Virus record (IMG/VR): IMGVR_UViG_3300044684_000176
Location: 1 to 48,510 of that record
From: a virus
Length of the DNA: 48,510 nucleotides
Direction: 5' to 3' (one strand)
Numbering within the stretch: the first letter of the stretch is position 1; each line of letters starts with the position of its first letter. The notes under the pieces were generated by a model. It did no database searches and was not told the origin of the DNA. It saw only the letters and a program-made list of their open reading frames with translations. Position numbers and translations under genes: made by a program. Of the stretch, positions 14,513 through 42,084 are shown piece after piece.

Positions 14513-17080
14513 CTAGTGCGTGAGGGCTTGTTCTTGAGCGGGCGACTTGGCCTGTTGATAGACCGTGATCGCCTGTACGTAGTCGTTCAGCCACGAGTCC
14601 CCGAGGCTTTCACCGACGCCGATACTCAGTTGCGTGAACCTTGGAACTGTCGGAGCTGCGGACCCCTGATACCCGGTTGTGCCGTCCAACATACCGGACG
14701 GGGTGGCAGGCCCGGAACCGATTACCTTGTGGGTTCCGATACCCCACGAGTTGCCGCCCCCAGCGCTTAAATACACAGTCCCATTCGCCACGTACCGCAC
14801 AGCAAAGTTAGCGCCGGTATTCTGTCTGAACAGAGAGAGGCGATTGTTCAACGTACCATCGCTGAGGGACACCGCGTATTCATTCATAGGCCCTGCGACT
14901 GCTCTCGACGTGTTGACCTTCGCCCATAGAGTCACGCCCGCGCCCGGCTTGAGGCCGCCAACGCTCGCCACGTCCGCCGCCCGAGTCGCCGAGGCGGAGG
15001 TGGTGGGGGTGCAGGAGGTGGCGAAGGCGAGGGCCTCAATCTGCGAACACCACGCATACACGCCGGAGCTACCCGTCCCCGCAAAGGACGTCGTCGTGCC
15101 GTTGTTCAGGTAGTTGTTGAGCGCGACCTGCGTTCCTGCGCCTTTGGTCGAAGTGAGCGCGACCCAGCACCATCCATTGTTGACGGGCACGGCTTTCGCC
15201 GACGTCCCCGACCATGATCCGTTGCTCGTGGTCGCGTTCAGCGTGCAGGTCGACAGGTTGACTACCGTGTACGCGTCCCCAGACGTCAGGTCGCTCATGT
15301 CCAACTGAAGGAGCGAATACTCGCCAGCCTTCAGGTACTCCGAAGCAGTCACGACACCGTTCGCGATGGTGACGGGCTGCGAACGGATGTGCGTCCCGTT
15401 CGTGGTCGTGTCGAGAATGTGGGTCGCGGTCGTCGTCCCATCGGGAGCGGCTGCGGCGTTGTTGGTTGCGGTCGTGCCCCCGGTGCCCCCGCTCGCCCAA
15501 GGCGACGTACCAAGCGCGTTCGACTGCAAGGTCAGGTTCGTACTCGCCTGCTCCACCAACAGCCCCAGGTCGGTGATCCGGGGATCGTTGACGGACACCG
15601 CGCTCCCGGCGGTGGCGATGTAGGCGGTCGGGTAGCCGCCGGCCGGGGCGGGGATGCCTTGAAGCTCCTCCTGCACCTCGTAGTATCGCAAAGTGAAGTC
15701 GTAGCTCTGCCCGTTGGCGATATTGCTGCAGGTCCGCAGCGCGGGCAGAACCCGAAGCGTCGAGGCGTTCGATAGCGTGGCCGTCCACGAGAAGCGTGTG
15801 AGGGCAGAAGTCAGCGCCAGCGCCGCACTATCGTTCTCTCGGATATACGTTCCTGTGCCGCCGCCTTCTTGCTGGACGAGGCAAATTCCGCCGCTAGGAA
15901 GCGTTCCGCCAACGAGCGCGGCGCTCAGACTTTCGGTCCACGTTTGGCCCGTGGCTGCGACGATCTGATTGCTGCTTTCAAAATACGAGTAGAGGGCCGC
16001 AGCCGTGCCGGTGTTGGTCCCGAAGTACCGCACGTCCACCATGTTGCCGTTCGCGGTCGGCGTTACCGCGACGATCTGGACCGAAAGCCCCGCGCCGTTG
16101 GTACCCGGCGACGGCCATGTGGTCGGCATGGCCCCGCCCGAGCCGAGCGTTCCGACCGTCGCCCCGGTCGCGTTGCCGTTGCGGATGCTGTTCGTCCGCG
16201 TCGGGAAGTAGACGAGCGACAGGTCATAGCCGTTCGGGTCGTTGACCGTGACGGCCGAGCCCGAGGTCGGAACGTAGGTCGCAGCGGTCGGGCCGTGGTT
16301 CACCATCGGCGCGCAGATACGGAAGGTCGCATCCACTGGGAGGCCCGTTCCGGCAACGGCGGGGCTCAGAAAGAACGGCAACCCGGCGGCGGCAGCGTTC
16401 CCGACAGTGTGGGTGTTGGTCGTGCGGGTAAGTGTAGACGTCGCCGACAGGGCGACGTTGTATTGCGATCCGCTGATGTAGTTGCCGTTGCTGTTGGCTT
16501 CAGCCGTGGCGAGACTAACCCCGCTCAGGTTGTTAGTGGTCCCGCCGACAAGCGATGAGTACACCGATCCGGTAAATACTTGGCCGGTCGCTGCTGGGAT
16601 CGCGATGCCCGACGAAAAGTAGACCTGCGGAGCGCCCGTGCTAGTGGTCGTCCCATATAGCCGCTCGTCGACGCACTGAAAGCCGCCTTGCTGGCTCAGG
16701 CCGACGACTTGCCACGTCAGGCCATCGCCATTGGTCGTGGCGAGCCAACCGGTCGGCTGCGTTCCGTTTCCCCCAACTTGGGCGACCGTCTGCGCTCCCT
16801 GCATCGTCGAGTTCGGGACGAAGTTCGTACTCGTCGCGTTGTTCGCATACCCCGCGCTCGACCGGCTGAACGATGCGCCGGGGAGGGCGGAGAACGAGGC
16901 GTAATTGACACCGCGCTCGGCGAAGCTCTGCGACGTGGTCTGAAAATTCAGCGCGAGCGTCGGCGGCGGGACCGGCGACTTGAGAAGCGAAACGACTTGC
17001 GCGGGCGTCAGAGCTTCGGCGGCCGGCGCGAGAAGGAGAGCCGCGAGCGCGACCGCGGCGGCGAGCTGACGGCGGCGCAT
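14513..17080 (-). CDS. Large exported, repeat-containing fibre/head-spike-like protein
   Basis: An 855-residue protein starting with a signal peptide (RRRQLAAAVALAALLLAPAA, cleavage near AEA) and a short linker with ALNFQTTSQSFAERGVNY. The rest is three related blocks, each with a Asn-rich opening (NFVPNSTMQGAQ, NSIRNGNATGATVG, NLTLQSNALGTSPW), a jelly-roll-like carbohydrate-binding middle, and links such as YVPTSGSAVTVNDP and YIATAGSAVSVNDP. This resembles phage head spike / concanavalin-like fibres that bind glycans. It is encoded in the head operon between two other signal-peptide proteins, so a capsid-surface fibre is plausible; the secretion signal is unexpected. Confidence 0.7.
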   Translation of the reverse strand: MRRRQLAAAVALAALLLAPAAEALTPAQVVSLLKSPVPPPTLALNFQTTSQSFAERGVNYASFSALPGASFSRSSAGYANNATSTNFVPNSTMQGAQTVAQVGGNGTQPTGWLATTNGDGLTWQVVGLSQQGGFQCVDERLYGTTTSTGAPQVYFSSGIAIPAATGQVFTGSVYSSLVGGTTNNLSGVSLATAEANSNGNYISGSQYNVALSATSTLTRTTNTHTVGNAAAAGLPFFLSPAVAGTGLPVDATFRICAPMVNHGPTAATYVPTSGSAVTVNDPNGYDLSLVYFPTRTNSIRNGNATGATVGTLGSGGAMPTTWPSPGTNGAGLSVQIVAVTPTANGNMVDVRYFGTNTGTAAALYSYFESSNQIVAATGQTWTESLSAALVGGTLPSGGICLVQQEGGGTGTYIRENDSAALALTSALTRFSWTATLSNASTLRVLPALRTCSNIANGQSYDFTLRYYEVQEELQGIPAPAGGYPTAYIATAGSAVSVNDPRITDLGLLVEQASTNLTLQSNALGTSPWASGGTGGTTATNNAAAAPDGTTTATHILDTTTNGTHIRSQPVTIANGVVTASEYLKAGEYSLLQLDMSDLTSGDAYTVVNLSTCTLNATTSNGSWSGTSAKAVPVNNGWCWVALTSTKGAGTQVALNNYLNNGTTTSFAGTGSSGVYAWCSQIEALAFATSCTPTTSASATRAADVASVGGLKPGAGVTLWAKVNTSRAVAGPMNEYAVSLSDGTLNNRLSLFRQNTGANFAVRYVANGTVYLSAGGGNSWGIGTHKVIGSGPATPSGMLDGTTGYQGSAAPTVPRFTQLSIGVGESLGDSWLNDYVQAITVYQQAKSPAQEQALTH

Positions 17081-19543: not shown

Positions 19544-20355
19544 AAGCCCGGGATGACCGATTTACTCACGCACCGGCAATTGATCTCGTGGCCGGGCCAA
19601 GTCCATTTCCCCTCAAGGAACGCGCCCGTCTCGACGTTGTAGCGCTTCCCGCTAAACGCGAGATGTTCCGGGCGCGGATGCTTGCCGCCGCCGGAGTGAA
19701 TCCAAATCGCCTCTGTGATCCCAAGCTCTTTTTGCCGCACGCGCTGGTAAACGGCCGTCGCCTTATTGTTCTGGTCGCGGGCGATGAACTCGGCGCGCCG
19801 CTTCGTTATCCCGTGACCCTGGCCGAGTTGTTCCGTCAGGGCGTGAAGGTCACGGCCAGCTTGGACGGATTGCATAACGACCGTCTCGACGTTTTGCATA
19901 TACCGTTGCGGGATGCTCTTAATGAGCCCGACGTTCTCGCCGATGATTGCTTGTTGCGCGTCGTTCTGCATCCGTGTCGGCCGGAACCTGACGGACATGC
20001 CCCGCTTCCGGAGCATCGCGGCGAGCTGCGCGTCCGAGCGCTCCGCGGCGGCCTTGGCGAAATACTCGGCCAGCTCCTCGGATAGCTTGTCGAAATCCCG
20101 TTGCCAGCGCCGGGCGAGCCGCCGCACCTCGCGCCGCAGCTCGACGGCCGGCGAGGCGTCCGCGGCCATTTCCGGCTCGTTCGCCCGGTAGCGCGCCTTG
20201 AGCCAGAACGACACGCTTCGCGCCATGGCGTCGATCCGGGCCTCAAGCTTGCGCTGATATGCGAGCTGTAGGCCGACGTTCGGTCGAACCGGGTCGAGCG
20301 TGCGGACGCCCTCCCGGGTGAGCTGCGCTTGGCGCGCTCGGGCCTCCCGGCTCAT
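19540..20355 (-). CDS. Minor head protein (SPP1 gp7 / Mu gpF type)
   Basis: A 271-residue minor capsid protein of the SPP1 gp7-like head morphogenesis family, which binds portal and entering DNA. The N-terminal half is helical (RREVRRLARRWQRDFDKLSE); the C-terminal signature is well conserved: HGITKRRAEFIARDQNNKAT, AIWIHSGGGKHPRPEHLAFS and WTWPGHEINCRCVSKSVIPG. It overlaps the portal gene by an ATGA junction, the usual portal-minor head order. Confidence 0.88.
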   Translation of the reverse strand: MSREARARQAQLTREGVRTLDPVRPNVGLQLAYQRKLEARIDAMARSVSFWLKARYRANEPEMAADASPAVELRREVRRLARRWQRDFDKLSEELAEYFAKAAAERSDAQLAAMLRKRGMSVRFRPTRMQNDAQQAIIGENVGLIKSIPQRYMQNVETVVMQSVQAGRDLHALTEQLGQGHGITKRRAEFIARDQNNKATAVYQRVRQKELGITEAIWIHSGGGKHPRPEHLAFSGKRYNVETGAFLEGKWTWPGHEINCRCVSKSVIPGF

Positions 20356-21881
20356 GGCGCTTTGGGCGGCGGGTTCTCGCCCTCGGGCTTGCCGTTCCCG
20401 TCGTCTTCCTCGTGCATCCCGTCGTCCGGTACGTCGTCACTCGGCGGGGTGGGTAGGGGCTTGGATAGGTCGAGCCCGTGGTAGGGGCTGGATTCGTCCC
20501 GGGCGAGCTTGGTGCGTACTTCCTCGCCGTCGATAGCCCCCATTTGGAAGTACAGGTTGTCCGTCTCGGCTTCGGTCTTGCGGTTGGTGATCTTCGCCGT
20601 CTCGTCCAGCTCCCACAGGTCGACGAACTCGAAACCGATATCCCGATCAATCTCGCCCCACAGATGCAACATGAGCATGTGAAGCGCGCGGGTGAGGTGC
20701 GAGGTGAAGAGCGCCTCTTGCTGCGCCTTGATCCACGCAAAGAAGACCTTGATCTCGCCGTCGCTCGACGCGTTGAGACCGCTGGGCGTGATCCCGAAGA
20801 GCACCACGAGCGGAATCCCGAACACGGCCGCCATGTGCTCTTGCGCCTGCGCCTGGAGCTTGTCGAGCGTCCCGAGCGGCGTCGCGATGTTCGCCAGCTC
20901 CTCGCGCTCTTTGTCCATCACGGCCACGCCGCGCTTGTCACGGGCGAGCTTGTAAAGCTCAATCCGCTTGCGGAGCTGCGCAACCGCGCCGTCATTCAGT
21001 ACCGACGAAAGGTCCGTCTTCAGGACGTCTTTCGAGAAACTGTTTACCGTCCCGTTGACGTTGCTGCGCGTTTCAAGCCAGTTGTCGACATACTCAAGGG
21101 CGATCTGGATTAGCGACAGACCGCCGAAGCTATACGCCGGCTTGAGGATATCGGAGACGGGCCGGCTTACGAACGTGAGGAGCCGGGAGGCGTGGACCTT
21201 CCGGCCCATCACGAACCACGACTGAGGCTTGTAGAACTTGGCGCTAAGCGGGTTCGTGGTGTTGTAGTCGTTCGGGTAGGTCCAAATGGGCTCGACGACC
21301 CGGAAGCCCTTGAGCGAGCCTTTCGGGAAGGTGCGCGGGTCGAGGATCAGCGGCGTCGCGAGGACGTCGTCCCGGTCGGCGTCGCCCGTGTCGGGGTAAA
21401 TGTGCGAGCGGCCGAACCACCCATCTAGCTCGGCCCCCGCGCGGAAGGCGTCGCGAAGCCGAAAGTTCTCCATGGCCGTCTTCAGCTCGTCGAGCCGCTC
21501 GGCCTTGTCCTCATCGCCCGCGCTCGTGAGCTTGACCCACTTCCGCGTCATTTCCTTAGCGATGATCTCCGCCGGCCGGCGAAACTCGGCGCGCTGCGAC
21601 AGCTCGGCGAGGAGCGGATATCCGAGAAAGCCGATTCCGGCGTGATGCGTCCCGCCGTTGGCCCACCGATAGACGTCATTGATCCGGGGGTCGGAGTCCA
21701 TCGCGAAGCGCGACAGCTCGCGCCCGTTGATGTTCGACGGCAGGACGCCCGGCGGCGGCTCGGGGATGACGAACGCGGAGCGCGACGTCTCGGCCGCCGC
21801 TTCGGCGCGCAGCTCGGCCAGGGCCAAATCGTTAATTTTGAGGCCGCGGCGCTTCGGCTGGGCGGTCACGGCTTCGCTCAC
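20352..21881 (-). CDS. Portal protein (DUF1073 type)
   Basis: A 509-residue portal protein that forms the dodecameric DNA gate of the head. Features include FVIPEPPPGVLPSNINGREL, RWANGGTHHAGIGFLGYPLL, FGRSHIYPDTGD, NPLSAKFYKPQSWFVMGRKV, SDILKPAYSFGGLSLIQIAL and the tunnel-loop region FGIPLVVLFGITPSGLNASS, all standard in DUF1073 portals. The start is a GTG overlapping the terminase stop. The C-terminal tail is acidic and proline-rich. Databases sometimes label this family as Acb1-like; the gene order and full length favour portal. Confidence 0.88.
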   Translation of the reverse strand: MSEAVTAQPKRRGLKINDLALAELRAEAAAETSRSAFVIPEPPPGVLPSNINGRELSRFAMDSDPRINDVYRWANGGTHHAGIGFLGYPLLAELSQRAEFRRPAEIIAKEMTRKWVKLTSAGDEDKAERLDELKTAMENFRLRDAFRAGAELDGWFGRSHIYPDTGDADRDDVLATPLILDPRTFPKGSLKGFRVVEPIWTYPNDYNTTNPLSAKFYKPQSWFVMGRKVHASRLLTFVSRPVSDILKPAYSFGGLSLIQIALEYVDNWLETRSNVNGTVNSFSKDVLKTDLSSVLNDGAVAQLRKRIELYKLARDKRGVAVMDKEREELANIATPLGTLDKLQAQAQEHMAAVFGIPLVVLFGITPSGLNASSDGEIKVFFAWIKAQQEALFTSHLTRALHMLMLHLWGEIDRDIGFEFVDLWELDETAKITNRKTEAETDNLYFQMGAIDGEEVRTKLARDESSPYHGLDLSKPLPTPPSDDVPDDGMHEEDDGNGKPEGENPPPKAP

Positions 21882-23494
21882 AGGAGCCCCCTCAAGGCGT
21901 CGTCACTGATTCGCATAGGCTGACGGCTGGTCGAGCTGTACGCAATCATCACGGCGTCGGCCAAGTTGGGCGATTTCGTCCCGTCAGGTTGCTTGTTCAC
22001 CTCAATTTTTCCGTCCGTGGTGAGCTTATACGTGGGCTGGGAAAGTTCGCCCTTGAGTTTCGCCAAGATCGGAAGAGACGAGGGGATACAAATGATGTGG
22101 TTGATATCGAACGGCCCGCTCTTCGTGACCGCCCGATACGTGTTCTGGAAACGCAAACGCAGCGACCACCACGCTTGAGGTTTGAGCCGCGCGAAGTAGT
22201 CCTTATTTTTGCGGCCCTTGACGTCCTCGCCCTCGGGATCGAACACCTCGCCCGAGCCCCGGAACGGCGAGGCCGTGAGCTGGCGACGGCCCGCGGCGGC
22301 CCGGCCCTCGTTGATGACCCGGGCGTCCCCGCGGCAACCCGCGCCCAGGCCGTCCGCGTCGTACTTGAAGCCGTCGAGCTGGAGCGTGTCGCAAATGTCG
22401 AACGCCTTAACCGTGGTGGCGAAGGTGTCCGAGCCCTTGCCGCTCCACTCCTCCAGATGCTCCAAGAGCGGGCCGTAGCGGGCGCAGAACGCGTTGAGGT
22501 CTTTCCCTTCGTCGGCCACGTCCAGGCCCCCCGCGCGAACGCCCGTGGGCGCAACGCCGAGCTTCGCGAGGCTGTCGATCGCCGCCTCAACCCATTCGCT
22601 CGGGATCAGGACGCCGAGCGCCGACGCGTTGTAATTGCGGTCAACCTCCTGCGCGACGGTCACGGGGTCGTGCTCTTCGCAGAAAGCGTCATACCACGCT
22701 TGATCTTTGCGGGGGTCGTCTCGCCAGTCGAAAATAAAGACGCGGAGTTTCCCGCCCCAACGCTTGAGCGCGAAGGGGTTGTTCATGCCGTTAACCGACG
22801 AAATGTCTATCCGACAATTCGTCGTCGCCGATAGCGAGGCGTCGATTAGTTGCGGGTGGTCAAGGTGCGCGGCTTCGTCAACGAAATAGATCGAGTTACG
22901 GCCGCCGCGCCCGACTTGGTCGCCGCCTTCGCCAGTAATCACCGCGCCCGTACCCGGGAATTTGATGAGCATGGCCGGCGCGTCGCGCTTCTCATCCCAG
23001 CCGTCGAGAAACTCGGGTGGGAGGTTGCGCAAGAACATGCGCGCTTTGAAGAAGAGCGATTTCGGCTCGCCGATCTTATCGACGTTCCGTTCAAGGTTCG
23101 ACCCGAAGCCGATCGCGAGGCCGCGGTTGAACAGACAGAGCGTACAGGCCAGCGCGACGGCTACCCACGAAATGCCGCAGTCCCGCGACTTCTCGGTGAG
23201 CATCCCTTTACGCTTACGCCATTGCTCAAGTACCGCGTCGATCCATTCCCGCTGTTTGGGGAACAGACGAAAGGGGATTTCCGCCGGCAACCCGATCTCG
23301 GGATTTCGCGGGTCGAACGTTATTCCCCAATCGTCGATAAAGTCGGCCGGGTGCTCGCGATACCATGCCTTGAGCTGGGCGAGACGCGTCCCGGTCTTGT
23401 CCTCCCGAATCCAGGCGAGACGCCGCATACGCGCCGCAAATTCGGCCGCGTAGTCGGGTTTCGTCCAGTTGAACGGGCGGACGTGGGCGTTCAC
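21878..23494 (-). CDS. terL: Terminase large subunit
   Basis: A 538-residue packaging ATPase-nuclease. Visible motifs: adenine-binding Q motif region FPKQREW (about 79-85), an atypical Walker A EKSRDCGISW (101-110), Walker B with catalytic Glu SIYFVDE (201-207), coupling motif DISSVNG (230-236), and nuclease acidic residues in GGLDVADEGKD (323-331, D325), KYDADGLGAG (378-387) and NLADAVMIAYS near the end. The GTG start overlaps the preceding stop. Unusually, it is separated from the small subunit gene by about 4 kb holding the lysis genes. Confidence 0.93.
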   Translation of the reverse strand: MNAHVRPFNWTKPDYAAEFAARMRRLAWIREDKTGTRLAQLKAWYREHPADFIDDWGITFDPRNPEIGLPAEIPFRLFPKQREWIDAVLEQWRKRKGMLTEKSRDCGISWVAVALACTLCLFNRGLAIGFGSNLERNVDKIGEPKSLFFKARMFLRNLPPEFLDGWDEKRDAPAMLIKFPGTGAVITGEGGDQVGRGGRNSIYFVDEAAHLDHPQLIDASLSATTNCRIDISSVNGMNNPFALKRWGGKLRVFIFDWRDDPRKDQAWYDAFCEEHDPVTVAQEVDRNYNASALGVLIPSEWVEAAIDSLAKLGVAPTGVRAGGLDVADEGKDLNAFCARYGPLLEHLEEWSGKGSDTFATTVKAFDICDTLQLDGFKYDADGLGAGCRGDARVINEGRAAAGRRQLTASPFRGSGEVFDPEGEDVKGRKNKDYFARLKPQAWWSLRLRFQNTYRAVTKSGPFDINHIICIPSSLPILAKLKGELSQPTYKLTTDGKIEVNKQPDGTKSPNLADAVMIAYSSTSRQPMRISDDALRGLL

Positions 23495-26966: not shown

Positions 26967-27290
26967 TCACGCGGCGACAGCGGGCGCGCCGGCCCACAGG
27001 CTGCGGAAGTAGGCGGCGCGCTTCGGGGCGACTTCGTCGAGCACGGCCAGCAGCTCCGCGCCCCGCGCGTCGTTCAGGTACGGCCGGCCCATCGCGGCGG
27101 CGAAGAGGTCTTCCTTGTCGCGGAAGTGAACGAAAATCGAGCCGGTCGACCGCTCGGCCGCAAAAGCGACGTCGCGGACGGTCACGGCTTCAAAGCCGCG
27201 CGCCTCGAAAAGCGACCGGGCGACGGCGACGATGCGCGCCCGGTTGGCTTCGCCGCGCTCGCGACGCTTGCCGGTGGTGGTGGTCTTCAT
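26967..27290 (-). CDS. Short TetR-type HTH protein
   Basis: A 107-residue protein with a TetR/AcrR N-terminal DNA-binding domain: ARIVAVARSLFEARGFEAVT, VRDVAFAAERSTGSIFVHFR, then DKEDLFAAAMG, the full classic helix-turn-helix with its flanking helices. Normal TetR repressors have about 190 residues; here the ligand-binding part is reduced to about 40 residues. It starts at ATG 27290 behind GGGGGCG, between small terminase and lysis genes. Likely a transcription regulator without the usual effector pocket. A similar mini protein is at 35683-36000. Confidence 0.78.
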   Translation of the reverse strand: MKTTTTGKRRERGEANRARIVAVARSLFEARGFEAVTVRDVAFAAERSTGSIFVHFRDKEDLFAAAMGRPYLNDARGAELLAVLDEVAPKRAAYFRSLWAGAPAVAA

Positions 27291-27303
27291 CAACGCCCCC
27301 GAT

Positions 27304-27333
27304 GGTTCGAAGCGTAGCGCTATGCTGATTCGC
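27304..27333. repeat. 30-bp element A, copy 2, overlapping the end of terS
   Basis: Identical over 30 bases to 23968-23997; contains the small terminase stop codon and lies directly before the ribosome site of the TetR-like gene. The matching stop at copy 1 has no gene in front, which suggests duplication from here or a selected regulatory site. Confidence 0.6.
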
Positions 27334-28081
27334 CGTTTTTCAAAAAGTCGGCGTAGGCCGCCGCCGCGTCCATGGCGTCGCCGCTCTCGACTTTCGCAAG
27401 GGCCGCGGCCAGCCCGACTTGTCCGGTGAGCGAGACTTTCACCGAGTCGTTAAATGCGCCGATGATCCGGCCGAGCGTCTCTAGGCATTTGGTCTTGTCG
27501 GCGAAGAGAACCTCAATCCCGTTCTTCGTCCGCTTGACGCCTTGGAACAGGAATTTAGCGCCGGAACTCAGATAACGCGTGTCCTTATACACGTCGCGCT
27601 CGACGCCCTCGCCGCCGCATTCGGGGCAATCCTCATTCGGCTCGCGGAAATGCTGATACCCGAAGCCGCCGGCGATCTCCGGCAACTTGCCGCCGTCGCG
27701 CTCGGCCTTCTCAAGAGCCGCTAGGTACTCGCGCTCGCGCCATTGGTAGGCGTGCCCCTCGCCCCAGCAATGACGGCAGCAACCAACCCGCAAGCTCGTC
27801 AGCTCGTTCGGGTCGACTAGAGAGACCTCGGTATAGATTTGCTGAAGACGCGCGAGGTCTATCACACCCGCCGTCTGCGCCGTCGCTTCCCGCTGAATTT
27901 GTGTAATTCTCGCGGTAATTTTGCGGTCTGCTAAGAGGCGGCTCGCCTCGCTCGCCATCCAGCTCTTGAGCTGGGCGTTCTCGTCGCCAACGTACGCCGC
28001 CCGATACGCGCTCGGTCCCGAGCGATGCACGGCGAAGTGCTGGCAAAAGGCTTCCTGTTTAGCGGTGAGTAGCTCGTCCAT
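27320..28081 (-). CDS. terS: Terminase small subunit
   Basis: A 253-residue small terminase, which recognises phage DNA for packaging. The N-terminal helical domain (LTAKQEAFCQHFAVHRSGPS, YRAAYVGDENAQLKSWMASE, RLLADRKITARITQIQREAT) is typical. It also contains a zinc ribbon, CCRHCWGEGHAYQW and CPECGGEGVERDV, seen in a subset of phage small terminases. It begins the late operon immediately next to the origin-like region and is about 4 kb from the large subunit. The start is ATG 28081. Confidence 0.82.
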   Translation of the reverse strand: MDELLTAKQEAFCQHFAVHRSGPSAYRAAYVGDENAQLKSWMASEASRLLADRKITARITQIQREATAQTAGVIDLARLQQIYTEVSLVDPNELTSLRVGCCRHCWGEGHAYQWREREYLAALEKAERDGGKLPEIAGGFGYQHFREPNEDCPECGGEGVERDVYKDTRYLSSGAKFLFQGVKRTKNGIEVLFADKTKCLETLGRIIGAFNDSVKVSLTGQVGLAAALAKVESGDAMDAAAAYADFLKNGESA

Positions 28082-28838
28082 GGTGAGCGCAGAGCTAGGG
28101 CCGTTCGTTAATTAGCGCAACGCCCCCGAGGGTCACGGGTTGAGCGAACCGTGTGAGGATGCAACTTGCCAGTATCAAAGCGCGTACTGGCCTGAAATTT
28201 CGCCTTATAGATCAATCGTTTACAGGATGTTCTCGTTATGTCCGAGCCAGTACGTACTGGCTTTCGAAATTCGCCTGTTAGATCAAGGACTTAACCCGTT
28301 TTCAGAACATCGTTCAGGCCAGTACGTACTGGCTTCATAAGTCATTGAACCGTAAGGGCTTTTTCGGGTTATCCACAGAAACGGGCCAAAAATTGAAAAT
28401 CATACGCGAGCGCGCTCCCGCCCCTGCATGCGTACGTGCGCGCCCGCGCCTCTGTGTGCGCCCGCACGGACTTTGCGGTTTCATACTGGCCGCTGTGGAT
28501 AACGTTCGAATTTCCCTTACGGTTCAATGACTTATGAAGCCAGTACGTACTGGCCCACACCGCCGCTATTTTAGGGGTTAAGTCCTTGAACCGTAAGGGT
28601 TTTTCGGAAAGCCAGTACGTACTGGCCGCCTACTGGCGGTTGTGCGCGCCTACTGCCAGTTGAGCCGCCACCTCCGTTAATTAACGAACCCTTACGCAAT
28701 AAGGGGTTATAATTTAACGAGGCCCTCCCGAGCGCCGCCGGTAATTATAGAGGGCCGGGACGGGCGGCTCCGGAAAAATAAAAAGCCGCCCCGGAATTAC
28801 CGGAGCGGCCTTAGACGTTCGTTATTTTTGCCGGTAAT
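28082..28838. other. Noncoding region with dyad-symmetric iterons and DnaA boxes: candidate replication origin
   Basis: No gene; base composition is visibly more AT-rich than the rest. Four perfect copies of the palindrome GCCAGTACGTACTGGC lie at 28246, 28318, 28539 and 28611, with a degenerate pair at 28168-28191. The inner two belong to a 41-bp perfect inverted repeat (28318-28358 / 28514-28554). Two perfect DnaA boxes TTATCCACA face each other at 28369-28377 (+) and 28494-28502 (-). All are symmetric about 28436; the outer palindromes stand 72 bp from the inner ones on both sides. CGTTAATTAACG and an AACCC/GGGTT hairpin lie to the right. Typical of an origin with an iteron-binding initiator. 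Confidence 0.78.
28774..28809 (-). terminator. Rho-independent terminator at the end of the accessory operon
   Basis: A 10-bp stem (GCCGCTCCGG / CCGGGGCGGC on the minus strand, one mismatch) with a 5-base loop, followed by TTTTTATTTTT. It insulates the origin region from the minus-strand accessory operon. Confidence 0.8.
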
Positions 28839-29147
28839 TTAGACAGTCGTTCCCGGCTGCGGCCCGTCGTTAATTAACGGGAGCGATTTCGCCCCGTACC
28901 GGTCGCGAACCGGCGTGACCTTCGCGCCCAGCCGGCGGCCGATCGCGGCGAGGTTCCGCAAGTCGTCGACCGTCAGGCCGTGGCCCACGCTGCGATGACC
29001 GGGCACGCTCTCGGGGAACATATCCGCGGCGAGCTGCACCATTTCGAGCGCGTCTTGCTCGCGGTCGGTGAGGGCTTGGCGGCGCTCGGCGGCCATCCAG
29101 CCCCAGGCGCACACGAGCGCCGCTATCAAGAGGATGCCTTCAGCCAT
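28839..29147 (-). CDS. Small membrane protein, last gene of accessory operon
   Basis: A 102-residue protein with an N-terminal transmembrane segment (EGILLIAALVCAWGWMAAER) and a soluble part with QDALEMVQLAADMFPESVPG and GLTVDDLRNLAAIGRRLGAK. It overlaps the preceding gene by eight bases and is followed by a terminator. Not recognised; a host membrane-targeted early function is conceivable. Confidence 0.65.
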   Translation of the reverse strand: MAEGILLIAALVCAWGWMAAERRQALTDREQDALEMVQLAADMFPESVPGHRSVGHGLTVDDLRNLAAIGRRLGAKVTPVRDRYGAKSLPLINDGPQPGTTV

Positions 29148-32084: not shown

Positions 32085-32108
32085 AGGTTTTGCCTCTTTG
32101 GTTAAGGG

Positions 32109-33270: not shown

Positions 33271-35667
33271 TTACGCAGCCCGCGCGTTGGCGATCCCCTG
33301 CGCCTTGCTATAGAGCCGCGCCACCTCCGCCGGGTCCTGGACGTTCAGCGCCAGATGGCCACCGCGCACGTAGAGCTTGGGCTTGCCGTTGTCGGGCGTG
33401 ACCACCTCGGTCACGCGGCCGTCGCGTAAGGCCGGATGCCAGTCGTAGCCGAGCCGCTGCATGAGGTCGCGGCGCTTGTTGCGGGGGACCGGGGCCTTGA
33501 TCGTGTCGAGGAGCGCGTCAAGGTACTTGCTCGACACCCAGCCGCCCGCGAACCCCGGCCGCCCCTCTTCGATCGCCTCAAGAACCTCCTGCTCAGCCTT
33601 GCCCAGGCTCTGCCGAATCGCCTCGCGCGTGCTGGTCGTCTCCGGAGCCCGTGACGGCAGAGACGCGGGGAGGGCGTACGCCTTGAGATAGCCGGCGACG
33701 ATCGCCCGGCCCTCGCCGTAGAACCAAGCCCGGAACGCGTCGAAATAGGCTTCCGTCAGACCGTCACGGGTCAAGTCCGCCTTGCGCTGCTGCGCGGTGA
33801 AGAAGACGCAATAACGGCGCTCGTTGTCGTCGATCGGGACGCCGTCCTTATGGTTCGTAAAGATGATCCCGTTTGCCCGGTTGTCGCCGGTGATCTGGTC
33901 GACGCCTTTACCTTCGATCGGAATGCGCGGGTTCGTGACGATCGGCTTAAATTCCTCAAGGAAGTCCCGTTTATTACTGAGGGAGACTTCCTCGATACAT
34001 ACCCACGTCTTGCGTAGAACCCACTTATTGAACTTCATCCCGTCTTTAGCCAGCGCCGCGGCGTTCGGAAGGTGCGAATACTGCTCGCCCGCGATGAACA
34101 CCATGAGATCGGCGAGCATGGTCTTACCGTTGCCCTGGACGCCCTGGACGACAGGCCACCACGGAATTTTGACGCCGGGCCGCTGCGCGACGTGCGCGAG
34201 GTACTCGATCAGGATGCGGCGATCATTGGCGTCGGGGAGCATGACGGCCAGATGGTTAAGCCAGGGCGACGGGTCGCCCGCGATCGTTGGGCAATGGTAC
34301 GGCTGATACGTGTTGACGTATTTGTAACGGTCCTCAAAGACCAACGCGCCCGGGGCCAGCTCGGGCCTAAAACAAAGGTCGTCCACGATCGCCGGGACGT
34401 TCACCCGTGACCGTGTGAACGCGAGCCAAGCGCTGTCTGTGGTCTTCTGGCCCATCGGGTCGACGACGAACATATGACCGCCGTACTCGACGTCGAACGC
34501 CTCGCGACTATAGAGCTTGTTGCGATGGACGCTGTAAATCTTAAGGTGGTCGGTGATGAACGTGCAGCCGTCGAAGTGGTCTTGCTGGTCGTGCGCGGCC
34601 ATGTATTCCCGGCCGATATCGCGCAGCGTGGTTCCGGTCGCCTGCGCCGACGCCTGGAGCTGTTCCGGGGTCGAGGTCGGGAGCGGCGCGGCGGCCTTGG
34701 GCTCGGGCTTCTGGCCGAGCTGCGCAACGCTCGTCACGAAGCGGCACGCCTTGAGGATGGTTGTCGTCAGATAGTGGACGTGGTGGGGGCTGTCCCACTT
34801 CTCCCGCACGAGCGCCGAACGGCGCATGATGCGTTCTATCCGTTCGCAGTCCTTGCCGGTCCACCACGCGAGGTGATTCGCGAGCGTCTGGTCCGCTTGG
34901 CTGGCGTCGTACGCCGCGTGGGGGTGCGGCCACTTCTGCGCCAGCTTCTCGACATTGCCGGTGAACAGGTCTTGGAAGGTCACGCCGTGGCCGAACGCAC
35001 CGGCCACGCTGCGCGCCGCCGCGGCGACCGCCTTCGCAATCAGCTCGTCGTCGTCCTCCGGCCCGCTCCACTCGGCCGCCGGCTCGGTCGTCCACTCCTG
35101 CGGCCCGTCGTCCGGTACGACGACCGGCGGGAAGAATTGCGAGACCGTGGCCGCGAAAGCCGCGGAACAGTCGTGAGCGGCGTTCCCTTGGGCGTGAATG
35201 CCGGTGAGGGCGACGAACCGGAGCTTCGTGTAAAGCTCAAGGTGCTCGGGCGCGTACTTCGTCCCGTGCGGGACCGGCGCGGCCATGCCGATGATGTGCA
35301 GACCCCGGCCCGACTGCGACACCTCCACGGCCGCCCCGGCGAACCGGGCGCACAGCTCTTGCGCGCGCGGGCTCCAGCCGTTCGGGCCGAGCGCTTCGTC
35401 AATGTCAAGGAAGAAGAACGGGTCCGCCTCGGTGAAGACGAAGCCCACGCCGGAACCGTGGCCGGCGTTGATGCGTTTAGCCGTCGCCGCAGCCGTGGCG
35501 AAGTCGCCCCAGGCGGCCGGGTCGTGCGCGCTGCACATGGCCCCGGTGCGCGCGTTGCACGGGAGCTTGTCCAGCTTGGCGGGGTTCTTCTCGCTCGGCC
35601 AAGCGAACCACGCGACAAATTGTCCCCACGCGCCGAGGGGCGCGAGGGCCGCCGGTAAGGCGTCCAT
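33271..35667 (-). CDS. Primase-helicase (N-terminal primase-polymerase-like, C-terminal SF3-type helicase)
   Basis: A 798-residue replication protein. The N-terminal 1-170 resembles the bifunctional primase-polymerase part of phage NrS-1-like proteins: VAWFAWPSEKNPAKLDKLPC, PFFFLDIDEALGPNG with acidic residues, and VEVSQSGRGLHIIG. The C-terminal DUF5906 helicase has Walker A GVQGNGKT (about 509-516), Walker B WVCIEEVS and motif C IIFTNHKDGVPIDDNERRY. It should prime and unwind at the fork together with the family A polymerase. It is the first gene of the minus-strand replication block's far end and is separated by 60 bases from the accessory promoter. Confidence 0.87.
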   Translation of the reverse strand: MDALPAALAPLGAWGQFVAWFAWPSEKNPAKLDKLPCNARTGAMCSAHDPAAWGDFATAAATAKRINAGHGSGVGFVFTEADPFFFLDIDEALGPNGWSPRAQELCARFAGAAVEVSQSGRGLHIIGMAAPVPHGTKYAPEHLELYTKLRFVALTGIHAQGNAAHDCSAAFAATVSQFFPPVVVPDDGPQEWTTEPAAEWSGPEDDDELIAKAVAAAARSVAGAFGHGVTFQDLFTGNVEKLAQKWPHPHAAYDASQADQTLANHLAWWTGKDCERIERIMRRSALVREKWDSPHHVHYLTTTILKACRFVTSVAQLGQKPEPKAAAPLPTSTPEQLQASAQATGTTLRDIGREYMAAHDQQDHFDGCTFITDHLKIYSVHRNKLYSREAFDVEYGGHMFVVDPMGQKTTDSAWLAFTRSRVNVPAIVDDLCFRPELAPGALVFEDRYKYVNTYQPYHCPTIAGDPSPWLNHLAVMLPDANDRRILIEYLAHVAQRPGVKIPWWPVVQGVQGNGKTMLADLMVFIAGEQYSHLPNAAALAKDGMKFNKWVLRKTWVCIEEVSLSNKRDFLEEFKPIVTNPRIPIEGKGVDQITGDNRANGIIFTNHKDGVPIDDNERRYCVFFTAQQRKADLTRDGLTEAYFDAFRAWFYGEGRAIVAGYLKAYALPASLPSRAPETTSTREAIRQSLGKAEQEVLEAIEEGRPGFAGGWVSSKYLDALLDTIKAPVPRNKRRDLMQRLGYDWHPALRDGRVTEVVTPDNGKPKLYVRGGHLALNVQDPAEVARLYSKAQGIANARAA

Positions 35668-35682
35668 GTCCAGCCTTACAGA

Positions 35683-36000
35683 TTAGGCGTCGAGGGAGGC
35701 GAGCGCGGCGCGCTTCAGGTCATCCGGGGCATTCCGGGCGATTCGATTACCGAGCGCAAGCCCCTGCGCGATAATGCGCAATCGTCGTTCTTTCACCGCC
35801 GCCCCCATGACCAAGTCATAAAACGCGCCCATCCCGCCATGAGCCATGCTCACGGTTGACGGCTTCATGCCCGCTCGCGCCGCCACCTTGGCCCGGCTCA
35901 GCGCGGCGAAACCGTCTCGCTCGGCGATCTCCAGGGCGGCGGCGATCAAACGGGCGTCTCGCCGCTCGTTCATCGCCCGATATCGTGCCTCTCGCCCCAT
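35683..36000 (-). CDS. Short TetR-type HTH protein
   Basis: A 105-residue TetR-like protein: NERRDARLIAAALEIAERDG, FAALSRAKVAARAGMKPSTV, SMAHGGMGAFYDLVMGAAVK give the HTH and the following helices, though the typical YYHF segment is changed to SMAHGGMGAFY. The effector-binding domain is absent. It begins at ATG 36000 in a weak ribosome context. Together with 26967-27290 the phage has two such mini-regulators. A candidate binder of the 15-bp palindrome, whose one-base-centre shape suits TetR dimers. Confidence 0.72.
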   Translation of the reverse strand: MGREARYRAMNERRDARLIAAALEIAERDGFAALSRAKVAARAGMKPSTVSMAHGGMGAFYDLVMGAAVKERRLRIIAQGLALGNRIARNAPDDLKRAALASLDA

Positions 36001-36037
36001 AGCCGCCGAATCACTTCCTTTGACCAAGGTGTCAGCG

Positions 36038-36415
36038 CTACAACGTGCCGGGGCCGGTTGCAAACGCCGCATCGCCTCCGGCCCGGTTCACGAGGTCGAT
36101 CCACGCCTTTTGCGCGATCTCCCGTTCCGTGCCGCGGAAGACCCACCCAGGGTGTTTGCACTCCCGCGACAGGAACACGGCGACCGTTCGTCCCACCATG
36201 TCGGGCGTGATGAGCACCGAGCGCCAGCCTATGAGGTCGCTCGACTTGAGGACCCGGTTGAGCTGCGCTGAATCGTTGGCGAGCCCGTACCGCACCGGCC
36301 GCCCGGTCTCCGGGTTCGGGAGGACCCCCACGTTATTGCGCCAGAGGGTCACGCCGGGAAGGCCGCCCGCCTCCAGCCGCACGGCGCTTTGTGCGAAGCC
36401 TTCGGACGCGCTCAC
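36038..36415 (-). CDS. VRR-NUC-type endonuclease
   Basis: A 125-residue nuclease of the VRR-NUC (PD-D/ExK) group, structure-specific endonucleases. Visible are LWRNNVGVL, GRPVRYGLANDSAQLNRVLK, SSDLIGWRSVLIT with the catalytic Asp in the SSDLIG motif, VFLSRECKHPGW with the E-x-K pair (ECK), and the closing AQKAWIDLVNRAGGDAAFAT. The GTG start overlaps the stop of the methyltransferase gene. It probably resolves branched replication intermediates. Confidence 0.85.
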   Translation of the reverse strand: MSASEGFAQSAVRLEAGGLPGVTLWRNNVGVLPNPETGRPVRYGLANDSAQLNRVLKSSDLIGWRSVLITPDMVGRTVAVFLSRECKHPGWVFRGTEREIAQKAWIDLVNRAGGDAAFATGPGTL

Positions 36416-37011: not shown

Positions 37012-37270
37012 AGCCCATGGCCTTTAACATTCGAGCAACAAGGTTCCAGACGTGGAGCGAGACGCGCGGGTAATTCTCCACGCGACCCGTCTTCTGTATC
37101 GCGTGCCGGTTCAAGGCGAAGCGATCACGGCCCCGGAACGTGCTCCTGTAGTAAGAGCCCTTGCGCGGGTTCTTGATCGTCGTGTCTCCGTCATTGCAAA
37201 TGTGCATTCGAGCAAGCTCGGTGACTTTGCCGGTAACGGCGCTCCAAAGCTCAACCTTTACAACGATCAT
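37004..37270 (-). CDS. Conserved small phage protein
   Basis: An 88-residue protein with the conserved opening IVVKVELWSAVTGKVTELAR followed by MHICNDGD, seen in many phages and prophages of alphaproteobacteria, and a basic middle (SYYRSTFRGRDRFALNRHAI). Unnamed family, perhaps RNA- or DNA-binding. It overlaps both neighbours, so it belongs to the helicase-nuclease operon. Confidence 0.8.
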   Translation of the reverse strand: MIVVKVELWSAVTGKVTELARMHICNDGDTTIKNPRKGSYYRSTFRGRDRFALNRHAIQKTGRVENYPRVSLHVWNLVARMLKAMGYA

Positions 37271-38912
37271 CTATGCGCCCCCTTAAGGTGTCCGCTTCTT
37301 CCCCGCTCATCGCCCAGGCCGTCAGCACATCCACGCCGAAGGTCAGGAAGAACTTGCGTTGCATTTGGCTGTCCGTGAGCCCGGCCGCTTTCTGATAGCC
37401 GCCCCAGGCCCCGACCGCCGCGCGCAATGCGTCGCGCCCGGCACGGGCCGCGTCGTGGCGCTTGACCTGCGCGAGCTGGCCGATGAGGGGGACGTTCCGG
37501 GCCGCGAGGTGCGCCCGATAGTCCTCGTTGCTCATGTCTGCGACGGTCACGGCCCCGCGGAGCTTGGCGAGCGTCTCGGCGTCCAGCTCCTCAAGGTCGC
37601 CGTCGACCATGGCCGGCGCGTCACGCGCGACCGGCGCGGGGATGGGCGCGCCGCAATAGGGGCATTCCTTGTAAATCCGTTCGAACGGCTGGAAACACCC
37701 CGGATAATAGGGGCTCTCCTCGCTCGTCACCGTGCAGACGCGAAGCGGGATTTCGTCATTGACCTTCTTCGCGCGCTTGTCGCGGCGCTCCAGCGTCCAG
37801 GGCCGCTCTCGGTCGGGCGGCCCGTGACGGACGAAGTTGCCCACATGGTCGATCAGGAGGGCTTTCCCCTTGCCGTCCATGGGCCGCAGCATCCGGCCGA
37901 ATTGCTGCATGTATGTCGCGAGGCTGGCCGTCGTGCGCGCCATGCTCCCGCCTTCGATCGCCGGGAGGTCGAACCCTTCCGAGACGATATCGACGACCAC
38001 GAGCTGCATGATCTCGCGCGCGGCGTAGCGCCGCAGGATGTTCCGGCGTAGGCCCGGGTCCGTCGTGCCGGTGAGTAGGGCGGCGCGTACGCCGGCCGCG
38101 AGGTACGCGCGCTCTATCTCGGCGGCCGTCTCGGTGTCGGGGCAGAACGTCACCCAAAGCTTACCCGCACCGAATCGCAGGTAGTTGGACACCACGTCGC
38201 CGACAATGTGGCTGTCCCGGGCCGCCGCGCGAAGTTTCGCGGTGCTCCAGTCGCCGGAAGCGCCTATGTCTTCCTCTAGGAGCTGCATGTCTGAGGGCGG
38301 ACAAACGACCCGGTAGTCCGTCAGATAGCCTTGCTCGATTAGCCACCGCATCGGCGGCCCTTGCACCATTACGTCCGCGATGCCGTCGAAGTCACGGCCG
38401 AGCCCCTTTCCGTCCGCGCGCGTCGGCGTGGCCGTGGGGAGAAGCCCGCGGACATGCGGGTTCGTGAATAGCTCAACGCCCGTATGCCATTTGTTATCTT
38501 TGACGAGGTGGTGGCCCTCATCCACCGTAAAGAGCGTGACTTGACGCGCCCAGCTTTCGAGCCCGGTCGCGCGGACTAACGTGTCGATACTGATAACCGC
38601 GTGCGGGCTCGACGGATCGTAGAAGCTCCGGCCGATCAATTCGGAGTGGTCTTGCACGATACCGCGGATTGTCTTGTCGGCGGCGATGATCCGATGACGG
38701 ACGCCCTCGCGGGCGAGCGCAAGCGAGAGCTGGCCGACAAGCTCCTGACGGTGCGCAATGGTCGCCGTCGCGCCCACGTTGTCCCGCGTGATCGTCGCGA
38801 GACATTTTGTCTTGCCGCCGCCCGTGTCCAGGCGGCCCACGACGTTGCGAGCGCCTTGGTTCCAGGCGGCGTGAATGTCGCCAACGAATTTCGTTTGATA
38901 CGGTCTAAGCAT
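37251..38912 (-). CDS. SF2 DEAD/DEAH-box helicase
   Basis: A 553-residue superfamily 2 helicase. Motifs: start LRPYQTKFVGDIHAAW (Q-motif), Walker A LDTGGGKT (about 29-36), DEGHH box TVDEGHHLV, TATPTRADGKG motif III, and motif VI in QQFGRMLRPMDGKGKALLID. A zinc ribbon CPYCGAPIP follows near residue 420, after ECPYCG. It resembles type III restriction-related helicases in phage replication modules. The gene is transcribed away from the plus-strand replication genes from the divergent promoter region. Confidence 0.9.
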   Translation of the reverse strand: MLRPYQTKFVGDIHAAWNQGARNVVGRLDTGGGKTKCLATITRDNVGATATIAHRQELVGQLSLALAREGVRHRIIAADKTIRGIVQDHSELIGRSFYDPSSPHAVISIDTLVRATGLESWARQVTLFTVDEGHHLVKDNKWHTGVELFTNPHVRGLLPTATPTRADGKGLGRDFDGIADVMVQGPPMRWLIEQGYLTDYRVVCPPSDMQLLEEDIGASGDWSTAKLRAAARDSHIVGDVVSNYLRFGAGKLWVTFCPDTETAAEIERAYLAAGVRAALLTGTTDPGLRRNILRRYAAREIMQLVVVDIVSEGFDLPAIEGGSMARTTASLATYMQQFGRMLRPMDGKGKALLIDHVGNFVRHGPPDRERPWTLERRDKRAKKVNDEIPLRVCTVTSEESPYYPGCFQPFERIYKECPYCGAPIPAPVARDAPAMVDGDLEELDAETLAKLRGAVTVADMSNEDYRAHLAARNVPLIGQLAQVKRHDAARAGRDALRAAVGAWGGYQKAAGLTDSQMQRKFFLTFGVDVLTAWAMSGEEADTLRGRIDDRCKG

Positions 38913-39912: not shown

Positions 39913-41043
39913 ATGAGCGGGGGACCATGGACGGACCCGCCGCCGGGCACGCTCCGCCCGTCGAGCGCCTACGCGTGGAGCAATTGCCCGGGAAGCTTCC
40001 GTCTCGCCGGCATGTACCCGGAGCCGGAGAGCGAGGAAGCTCGCGAGGGCACGGCCGCGCACCACTACGTCACCGAGGCCATGCAAGGCCGCGTGTGGCC
40101 GGTCGGGACGCTCGCGCCCAACGGGGTCACGCTCACCGAGGAAATGCACGACTGCGGCGAGGTCTTCCTAGACTACGTCGCCGGTTGGGGCGCGGTGCAA
40201 TGGTTCGTCGAGCGCAAGCTCACCATGCACGCGCTCGTGCATCCGGAATGCGAGGGCACGCCCGACGCCTATCACGTCGACTTCGCGGCCCATCGCATCG
40301 CCATCGTCGATTACAAGTACGGCCACCGATACGTTGACCCGTGGCGCAACGCCCAAGGGGTCAACTACATCGCGGGCGTTCTGGAGGCGCACGGGCTCAC
40401 CCGTGACGACGTGAAGGGTTGGGAGATCGTCTTCGCGGTGATCCAGCCCCGCAACTTCCATTCTTCCGGCCCGGTGCGTGAGTGGCGCGCCCTCGGCTGG
40501 CAAGTGTGGGAGGCGATCGACGCGATGCGCGAGGCGGCCTACCGGGCGAAGGAGCCCAACGCCGCGACGAAGACGGGGCCTTGGTGCCGTGACTGTTCCG
40601 GCCGTCACGCCTGCGAAGCCCTGCGCCGGGTCGGGGCCTATGCGCTCGACTTGGCCGGCTCGTCCATCCCGTCCGAGCTGAGCGACGACGCGCTCGGGCT
40701 CCAGCTCCGCCACATCCGCGCTGCGCAGAAACGCCTTGAAGCGCTTCTCTCCGGCCTGGAGGCGGACGCCCTGGCCCGCATCCGTCGCGGAGAGAAGCTC
40801 GCCGGGCTCGCAATCCAGCACGGCCAGGGCCGCGAGACGTGGAACACGACCGCGGAGACGGTGCTCGCCACCGCCGACGCGTTCGGGATCAACCTCCGCA
40901 AGGAAGCGCTCCTCACGCCCAAGCAAGCCCTCAAGGCGGGGATGGACCCCGACCTAGTCAAAGCTTTCGCGCATACGCCCTCGGGCGAGGCGAAGGTGGT
41001 TGAAGTAGACGCGTCGGCGGTCGCCCGCGCGTTCAGTCGCTAG
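39913..41043 (+). CDS. RecB-like / DUF2800 PD-(D/E)xK nuclease
   Basis: A 376-residue DUF2800 protein related to RecB/Cas4 nucleases. Visible parts: RPSSAYAWSNCPGSFRLAGM (first Cys), REGTAAHHYVTEAM (His), GTPDAYHVDFAAHRIAIVDY followed by KYG with the D-x-K catalytic pair (VDYKYG), and CRDCSGRHACEALRR, whose Cys cluster would bind iron-sulfur as in Cas4. It probably acts as the phage exonuclease in recombination, with the following SSB. Coupled closely to both neighbours. Confidence 0.87.
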   Translation: MSGGPWTDPPPGTLRPSSAYAWSNCPGSFRLAGMYPEPESEEAREGTAAHHYVTEAMQGRVWPVGTLAPNGVTLTEEMHDCGEVFLDYVAGWGAVQWFVERKLTMHALVHPECEGTPDAYHVDFAAHRIAIVDYKYGHRYVDPWRNAQGVNYIAGVLEAHGLTRDDVKGWEIVFAVIQPRNFHSSGPVREWRALGWQVWEAIDAMREAAYRAKEPNAATKTGPWCRDCSGRHACEALRRVGAYALDLAGSSIPSELSDDALGLQLRHIRAAQKRLEALLSGLEADALARIRRGEKLAGLAIQHGQGRETWNTTAETVLATADAFGINLRKEALLTPKQALKAGMDPDLVKAFAHTPSGEAKVVEVDASAVARAFSR

Positions 41044-41061: not shown

Positions 41062-42084
41062 ATGCCTCGTAACCTTACCTCACCGGTCGGTCGCTTCGTT
41101 CAAGGCGACTGTTTCGAAATGCAGACGACGGACCAACAGGGCCGCCCGCGTCTCGTGCAATCCGGCCCGAACGCCGGCCAGCCCGCGCCTCAACTTTACA
41201 TCGGCGTTGCGTTCCATAAGCAAGACCCCGCGTGGCCGGCCTATTACGCCGAGTTGGTGCGCGAGGCGGCCGAGGGCTTCCCCCAGCTCTTCCCGAACGG
41301 CCCGCGCCCCGACATGCCCAACGGCGGGTGCGTGCTGCCCACTTTCGCCTTTAAGATCGTGGACGGCGACGGGTTCGACACGACCGGCAAGAGCAACGCG
41401 ACCAAGGAAGGGTTCGCCGGCCACTGGATCGTCCGTTACACGGGTGGCTTCGCGATCAAGGTCTTCCGCGCCGCGGGCGGTGGTCACACCGAGATCACCA
41501 ACCCGGCCGACATGAAGCGCGGCTATTTCGTCCGCGTGGCGCACACCGCCAAGGCGAACGGCAACGCGCAGAAGCCGGGCCTCTATCTGAGCCCGTCGCT
41601 GGTCGAGCTGACGGCCTACGGCGAGGAGATCATTTCCGGCCCGAGCCCGTCCGAGGCGTTCGCCGCTCCGGCCGCGCTGCCGCCGGGAGCCTCGCCCGTC
41701 CCGCTCGCACCGGCCGCCATGCCGGGAGCTGCCGCCCCTTTGGCCGGTGCGCCGCCGGCCATGCCCCCGAGTGGCGCACCGGGTGGTACGCCGGGCGTTG
41801 GTGCGCCGCCCCCTTCGCACACTGGCCCCGGTGTTCCGCCGACTGCATACCCCTCTAGCCCGGCTCCGGCCGCCTACGCGCCGCCCCCGGCGACCGCTGC
41901 GGCTCCGCCGGCCTACACGGGCTTTGTCGCTGCCCCGCCGGCCGCCCCGATGGCCCCGCCGCCGGCTCCGGCCGCCCCCGTGCGCCAGATGACCGCGGCG
42001 GCCAACGGCACGACCTACGAGGCTTATATCGCCGCCGGCTGGACGGACGCCCAGCTCGTGCAGCACGGGCTGATGCTGGCCTAA
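41062..42084 (+). CDS. Single-strand DNA-binding protein (DUF2815-like)
   Basis: A 340-residue protein whose first 195 residues match DUF2815 phage SSBs with an OB-like fold: NLTSPVGRFVQGDCFEMQTT, YIGVAFHKQDPAWPAYYAEL, FAFKIVDGDGFDTTGKSN, GHWIVRYTGGFAIKVFRAAG, ADMKRGYFVRVAHTA and LYLSPSLVELTAYGEEI. The remaining 140 residues are a Pro/Ala/Gly-rich disordered linker ending with ANGTTYEAYIAAGWTDAQLV, a short conserved tip. The linker-tip plan resembles bacterial SSB tails that recruit partners. Preceded by AAGGAAAG, followed by a terminator. Confidence 0.85.
   Translation: MPRNLTSPVGRFVQGDCFEMQTTDQQGRPRLVQSGPNAGQPAPQLYIGVAFHKQDPAWPAYYAELVREAAEGFPQLFPNGPRPDMPNGGCVLPTFAFKIVDGDGFDTTGKSNATKEGFAGHWIVRYTGGFAIKVFRAAGGGHTEITNPADMKRGYFVRVAHTAKANGNAQKPGLYLSPSLVELTAYGEEIISGPSPSEAFAAPAALPPGASPVPLAPAAMPGAAAPLAGAPPAMPPSGAPGGTPGVGAPPPSHTGPGVPPTAYPSSPAPAAYAPPPATAAAPPAYTGFVAAPPAAPMAPPPAPAAPVRQMTAAANGTTYEAYIAAGWTDAQLVQHGLMLA

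Follow-up and report, generated by a model that had tools for sequence, protein, structure and literature searches.

Mirrored half-site arrays upstream of terS as a probable replication origin in PrimPol-encoding tailed phages

The pri-rep-ori origins of PICI/SaPI elements, which are experimentally functional, always comprise two sets of iterons around an AT-rich region (PMC6092414). For replication proteins that join an AEP primase to an SF3 helicase, such as those of pRN1, NrS-1 and BIP-1, the bound DNA motifs had previously been lacking (PMC4234260). The pRN1-type origin is an inverted repeat (stem-loop) downstream of an AEP-SF3-winged-helix protein and has been proposed for Bordetella phage BIP-1 too, with a bidirectional start proposed for both; the motifs bound were referred to as 'not yet identified sequence motifs', and that work saw no iterons that serve as origin (PMC4234260). 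De novo priming by the NrS-1 polymerase depends on an 8-nt motif in the template, TTTGGTTA (PMC8718748; PMC7102993), and such primase sites have been suggested as the origin, in a proposal limited to the 8-nt sites (PMC7102993). An origin family with mirrored arrays in PrimPol phages was not found described in our literature search.

The window analysed here is the whole 48,510-nucleotide IMG/VR record IMGVR_UViG_3300044684_000176, the 48.5-kb genome of a contractile-tailed phage (Table 1). Its PrimPol matches PF22763 HBD (1.8e-19), PF19263 (3.7e-17) and the PDB chains of NrS-1 (2e-32). The replication genes and terS, all leftward, are separated by 757 bp of intergenic DNA (28082-28838). This DNA contains a dyad of about 460 bp (28168-28637) that lies ~4.6 kb from the PrimPol stop. 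The terS product shows a weak match to a DnaJ-like CxxCxGxG zinc finger (E 0.019), and terS is followed by the gene of a second small TetR-type HTH protein, phrog_25642 (26967-27293, minus strand), which overlaps a plus-strand ORF and has counterparts at L012:16705-16992 and L103:10983-11243 (L numbers denote the loci of other phages). The record ends, 1-163 and 48348-48510, share a near-identical 163-bp stretch inside tail-fibre repeats; a circularly permuted genome, or one that is circular in assembly, of about 48.35 kb is possible.

Table 1. Coordinates of the dyad elements and of selected genes in the window.
Feature	Position	Strand	Remark
Split copy GCCAGTA-N10-TACTGGC	28168-28191		Beyond the dyad, terS side
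IHF-like core TCAANNNNTTR	28212-28222	+	
Left outer arm	28246-28297	+	79% complementary to 28575-28626; includes TCAAGGACTTAACCC
Outer palindrome 1	28246-28261		GCCAGTACGTACTGGC, two GTACTGGC half-sites
IHF-like core, left outer spacer	28283-28293	+	
Left arm, perfect 42-bp inverted repeat	28317-28358	+	100%
Inner palindrome 1	28318-28333		GCCAGTACGTACTGGC
IHF-like core, left inner arm	28338-28348	-	
Perfect DnaA box	28369-28377	+	TTATCCACA
Central core, GC-rich	28378-28493		Includes alternating purine-pyrimidine tract 28425-28443
Lone half-site TACTGGC	28484-28490	+	Adjoins core
Perfect DnaA box, opposed	28494-28502	-	TTATCCACA
Right arm, perfect 42-bp inverted repeat	28514-28555	-	100%
IHF-like core, right inner arm	28524-28534	+	
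Inner palindrome 2	28539-28554		GCCAGTACGTACTGGC
Right outer arm	28575-28626	-	79% complementary to 28246-28297
IHF-like core, right outer spacer	28579-28589	-	
Outer palindrome 2	28611-28626		GCCAGTACGTACTGGC
Lone half-site TACTGGC	28631-28637	+	Immediately beyond outer palindrome 2
Tail sheath	6508-8430		
Major capsid	10722-11783		
Portal	20352-21881		
TerL	21878-23494		
terS, small terminase, first late gene	27320-28081	-	PF03592/phrog_51
PrimPol, NrS-1-type, proposed initiator	33271-35667	-	AEP, HBD and SF3-like helicase parts; C-terminal domain of predicted winged-helix topology
Codon of PrimPol residue E754	33406-33408	-	Tip of predicted wing
Small TetR-type HTH protein, phrog_8723	35683-36072	-	Directly upstream of PrimPol; conserved partner gene
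Helicase	37251-38912		
Exonuclease	39913-41043		
Gp2.5-like SSB	41062-42084		
Family-A DNA polymerase	42186-44597		

A preliminary description of this DNA had pointed to a symmetric dyad built from four palindromes, an inverted repeat and two DnaA boxes. Indeed, the four copies of the palindrome lie exactly at the positions it gave, and the sequence is absent elsewhere in the record even when three mismatches are allowed (0.08 expected). The claimed mirror symmetry about 28436 is real, with a score of 77; the intergenic region scored 15 at most when its dinucleotides were shuffled 300 times, and shuffled whole genomes scored 13-15. The inverted repeat is perfect but measures 42 bp instead of the 41 bp described, its arms being ~155 bp apart. 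Both DnaA boxes are perfect and opposed, and the record has no further perfect copy (0.08 expected from base composition), but they are centred on 28435.5 and not on the supposedly shared 28436, so that their mirror is off by half a base. The mirrored outer spacers with their common motif are likewise present within the partly complementary outer arms. Overlooked had been the split copy, the lone half-sites and five IHF-like cores, to which the rest of the record adds only a sixth. Also overlooked was an alternating purine-pyrimidine tract of 19 nt, which spans the dyad centre and ranks by longest run at the top of the genome's windows. The 60-bp windows at 28402 and 28442 contain 25% and 35% AT, respectively, compared to 48-57% in the flanking windows; with its core GC-rich, the dyad of this phage has no evident AT-rich melting element. 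The cumulative GC-skew minimum suggested as a check does not occur at the site: the skew peaks (maximum) near 26.9 kb, third-position skew does not change sign across the site, and GC skew is uninformative for origin mapping here. The record's only two exact copies of another palindrome, CGTTAATTAACG (28675-28686 and 28868-28879), together with a variant at 28106-28117, bracket the origin-like site and are possibly operators.

A scan of viral contigs for the 16-bp palindrome returned seven contigs with one copy each, about the chance level, and yielded no relatives; DNA similarity to phage records and a PrimPol scan of bacterial genomes gave no matches. Relatives were gathered by PrimPol similarity instead. 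The nearest one with a clear site, L012, whose PrimPol is 62% identical, carries two copies of TTCCGGTATATACCGGAA at a distance of 224 bp; they belong to an inverted repeat of 98 bp that lies upstream of terS. The same layout with yet other half-sites was found upstream of terS in L103 (arrays of TACCCCGA), L109 and L111 (TACCCCGTA), L112 (TACTCCCGA), L014/L018 (ATACGGGGA), L114 (ATACACCTA), L151 (TACCCCAA) and L110. The order is stereotyped: outer sites, a spacer with an IHF-like site, inner sites and the core, then the mirror image. In PrimPol phages the mirrored half-sites are usually TACCCCG and surround a core where the late genes begin; cultured Klebsiella phage JD001, Pectobacterium phage PEAT2 and Acinetobacter phage Scuro show this layout with TACCCC half-sites and an AT-rich core, and AT-rich centres also occur in L103 and L164. 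The preliminary description had held that a palindrome absent or unordered in relatives would speak against its reading; taken literally this is what was found, as the sequence is absent, but the order is kept with other half-sites. Judged from the sequences compared, the palindrome is private to this phage and the architecture is common to PrimPol phages. In L012, the TerS (L012:16111-16662) has no N-terminal HTH, and across the site from it lies the gene of a small protein with two HTHs (15227-15487).

Comparing PrimPol phages with controls, namely 26 phages with related TerS/TerL and without PrimPol, supported this association. In an uncurated count over 42 PrimPol phages, TACCCC/GGGGTA occurred 5.74 times per kb in the 560 bp upstream of terS vs 0.29 elsewhere, a ~20-fold enrichment, while the controls had 0.14 upstream of terS vs 0.27 elsewhere. 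The IHF core followed the same pattern (1.70 vs 0.27 per kb in PrimPol phages; 0.07 vs 0.18 in controls), and 22 IHF-like cores were present in 15 of 22 sites, compared to 1.4 in shuffles. Alternating purine-pyrimidine tracts reached at least the 98th percentile in 12 of 18 phages; such long, Z-DNA-prone tracts lie in the cores of 12 of 18 sites, GC-rich cores included. The DnaA box TTATNCACA is not conserved, with no copy in 21 other sites, and its co-occurrence with a primase-helicase, called unusual in the preliminary description, is a peculiarity of this phage. In many PrimPol phages only a degenerate array is present. A strict 7-mer array statistic upstream of terS, positive in 16 of 42 PrimPol phages and in 7 of 29 controls, is too coarse a measure, since the true arrays are degenerate and the control matches are mostly coding or operator-like. 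Two candidate arrays were rejected: the AAGGTTCGC arrays after PrimPol in L120/L124 are coding pentapeptide repeats and not iterons, and the CTGCGCA repeats upstream of terS in L034/L040/L098 lie within coding sequence. A similar inverted array (GCATCCTATGC) is located upstream of terS at L043:3138-3448, beside a different, 906-aa primase-like protein, and the layout may extend to other primases.

The NrS-1 genome contains one exact copy of TTTGGTTA, although two, one per strand, are stated in PMC7102993, and this copy is inside an inverted GGTTACACTTT array that fills the gap between the primase gene and terS. Thus, the array coincides with the only place in the family where initiation is backed by biochemistry. 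The annotated hypothetical ORF NRS1_29 (L182:17055-17456) coincides with the iteron array as well and may not be a gene. In the phage analysed here, the single TTTGGTTA copy is at 32097, outside the dyad site, and enrichment of GTG/CAC, the second NrS-1 primase motif, was inconsistent in the core.

The first expected reader of the half-sites was the TetR-type HTH protein phrog_8723, whose model matches TetR-family structures. However, its recognition helix did not covary with the half-sites (Mantel r=0.035, p=0.38), and its top columns in the column scan remained within the permutation range. The scan instead singled out PrimPol residue 754, which ranked first of 600 columns (partial Mantel r=0.70, p=0.0002; next column 0.46) in an analysis of 30 hand-curated half-sites that was controlled for PrimPol core identity and in which the half-sites were chosen by eye, part of them once column 754 was known. 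In a tree that leaves out the C-terminal domain, the label Asn or non-Asn at this position changes six times, five of them forced, and residue 754 has switched independently at least five times, the half-sites changing along: L103 (Asn, TACCCC) sits among phages with Glu, Thr, Ser or Arg, and the sister of L116 (Asn, TACCCC) is L112 (Ser, TACTCCC). L015, which was outside the column-discovery alignment, has Glu at 754, as expected because it shares the TGCTGGAAG repeat with L013. In a first blind test of 74 new loci, the predicted hexamers formed the top three arrays in Asn phages, a result that is directional only (Fisher 0.12). No array was detectable in L184, the one phage with Glu754 among the new loci, and L234 and L224 do not follow the link. 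With an automatic label restricted to the TACCCC class, Asn was present at 754 in 35 of 36 TACCCC-array phages among 120 non-redundant phages, and the array in one of 35 non-Asn phages (Fisher 7e-6, rank 1 of 185 columns, uncorrected for phylogeny and including the column-discovery phages).

The PrimPol C-terminal domain spans about residues 626-798, and its AlphaFold model has the winged-helix order H1-S1-H2-H3-S2-wing-S3, with residue 754 at the hairpin tip; since Foldseek gave no significant match for this domain, the winged-helix call relies on how helices and strands succeed one another in the model. The covariation across aligned sequences suggests that residue 754 is a candidate specificity residue that changes with the half-site, and makes a recognition code testable. 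We give even odds to a general version of this reading, in which self-sufficient NrS-1-type PrimPols recognise their origin with specificity coming largely from the wing of the C-terminal domain, residue 754 having switched at least five times together with the iterons. The same balanced judgement covers, jointly, the proposed code as part of the wing reading: Asn for TACCCC-like, Glu for TACT/TGCT-like and Arg for several G-rich half-sites.

With a probability of roughly three in four, the dyad is a bidirectional origin of a PrimPol tailed phage that is read by the PrimPol C-terminal domain. This reading is based on the anatomy of the site, its conservation in PrimPol phages, its independence from the downstream gene, the enrichment of IHF motifs, the NrS-1 primase site and the covariation of residue 754. 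Counted against it were the GC skew, the GC-rich core, the ~4.6 kb to PrimPol, the lack of a significant fold match for the C-terminal domain, the outcome of the blind test, the exceptions L234 and L224 and the degenerate arrays. We consider it unlikely that the site is instead a control region for the switch from early to late expression, in which the palindromes would serve as operators and bind either the TetR-type protein encoded next to PrimPol or the second such protein, encoded after terS. The location at the early/late boundary, the fit of 16-18-bp palindromes to TetR dimers and the presence of a TetR-type gene directly upstream of PrimPol in nearly all relatives agree with such operators, but the covarying residue is in PrimPol and not in the TetR-type recognition helix, and an operator needs neither mirror symmetry over 460 bp nor IHF sites. 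In addition, the NrS-1 primase site lies in a homologous array, yet NrS-1 has no phrog_8723-type gene, and a crude scan found no sigma-70 promoter at the site.

A packaging site (pac or cos) read by TerS is less probable still. In most phages the site is ~50-350 bp upstream of terS at any distance from PrimPol, which is the usual place of cos or pac. However, it precedes a minor tail gene (phrog_4688) in L113, L118 and L144 and is followed by other TerS families in L138 (Sf6-type) and L152 (another small terminase), and it is absent from the 26 control loci as well as from temperate Magia, SEN34 and yong1, which have the same TerL with other annotated replication proteins. The sites of L012 are among the best although its TerS lacks the N-terminal HTH, and mirror symmetry is ill-suited to one-way headful packaging. 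A partition (centromere-like) or anchoring site of a plasmid prophage, to which the general resemblance of palindrome arrays to parS-type sites would point, is very improbable, given that the scanned proteins of the record include no partition-family match and that the site family is tied to PrimPol and a lytic gene order.

If the dyad is an origin, the PrimPol C-terminal domain would bind the repeated half-sites, doubled here into the 16-bp palindromes, with the predicted wing tip, residue 754, contributing to sequence choice. The two mirror-image sets of sites would place two SF3-helicase rings head to head on either side of the core, IHF would bend the spacers, and the core would open for PrimPol to prime both strands, giving two divergent forks. 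A scheme of this kind has been put forward for pRN1 and phage BIP-1 (PMC4234260), and it resembles the PICI origins (PMC6092414). We infer each of these steps: PrimPol binding, double-hexamer assembly, IHF binding, melting and bidirectionality, as well as any role of DnaA or the TetR-like protein. The TetR-type protein may regulate the operon, by analogy with orf56 in pRN1. Of the preliminary reading, a bidirectional-type origin with a phage initiator is thus well supported by comparison, through the mirrored arrays of PrimPol phages, the NrS-1 priming site within an array, the IHF-like sites and the covarying PrimPol residue; its host-DnaA half is weak, and help from host DnaA, in this phage only, is possible and unsupported by comparison.

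Motifs, an origin layout and a candidate specificity residue are hereby proposed for a large phage group with cultured members from Klebsiella, Pectobacterium and Acinetobacter, and the question is thereby reduced to a simple binding and copy-number experiment. If the reading is true, the origins of many uncultured phages would become readable from sequence, and if the wing reading is also true, one residue switching with its iterons would give hundreds of cultured phages a readable origin code.

Compared with known systems, the site resembles DnaA/iteron origins of plasmids and chromosomes in that a single region brings together iterons, IHF-like sites and DnaA boxes, but its DnaA boxes are restricted to this phage, it is mirror-symmetric and no plasmid-type Rep protein is present. 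As in PICI origins, two iteron sets flank a centre, the initiator is an element-encoded primase/SF3-type protein and the iteron sequence varies between elements. PICI origins, in contrast, have an AT-rich centre instead of a GC-rich one with purine-pyrimidine alternation, and they are located immediately 3' of the initiator gene pri/rep, a placement seen in NrS-1 and nearly so in L014, L114 and L151, whereas the site described here is at the start of the late genes; in addition, its half-sites are doubled into perfect palindromes, DnaA boxes are added and the initiator is an AEP PrimPol. NrS-1 has a homologous PrimPol and an inverted TTACACTTT repeat array between PrimPol and terS with the measured primase site, but its array is less symmetric and directly follows PrimPol, and an unrelated putative regulator takes the place of the TetR-type gene upstream. 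The pRN1 and BIP-1 systems likewise combine an AEP primase, an SF3 helicase and a C-terminal winged helix (here predicted) in one protein, with a small regulator gene upstream in the operon and a symmetric element conserved in form and not in sequence. In contrast to their closed 100-nt hairpin, the arms of the dyad are widely separated, and here both the repeats and a candidate specificity residue are identified.
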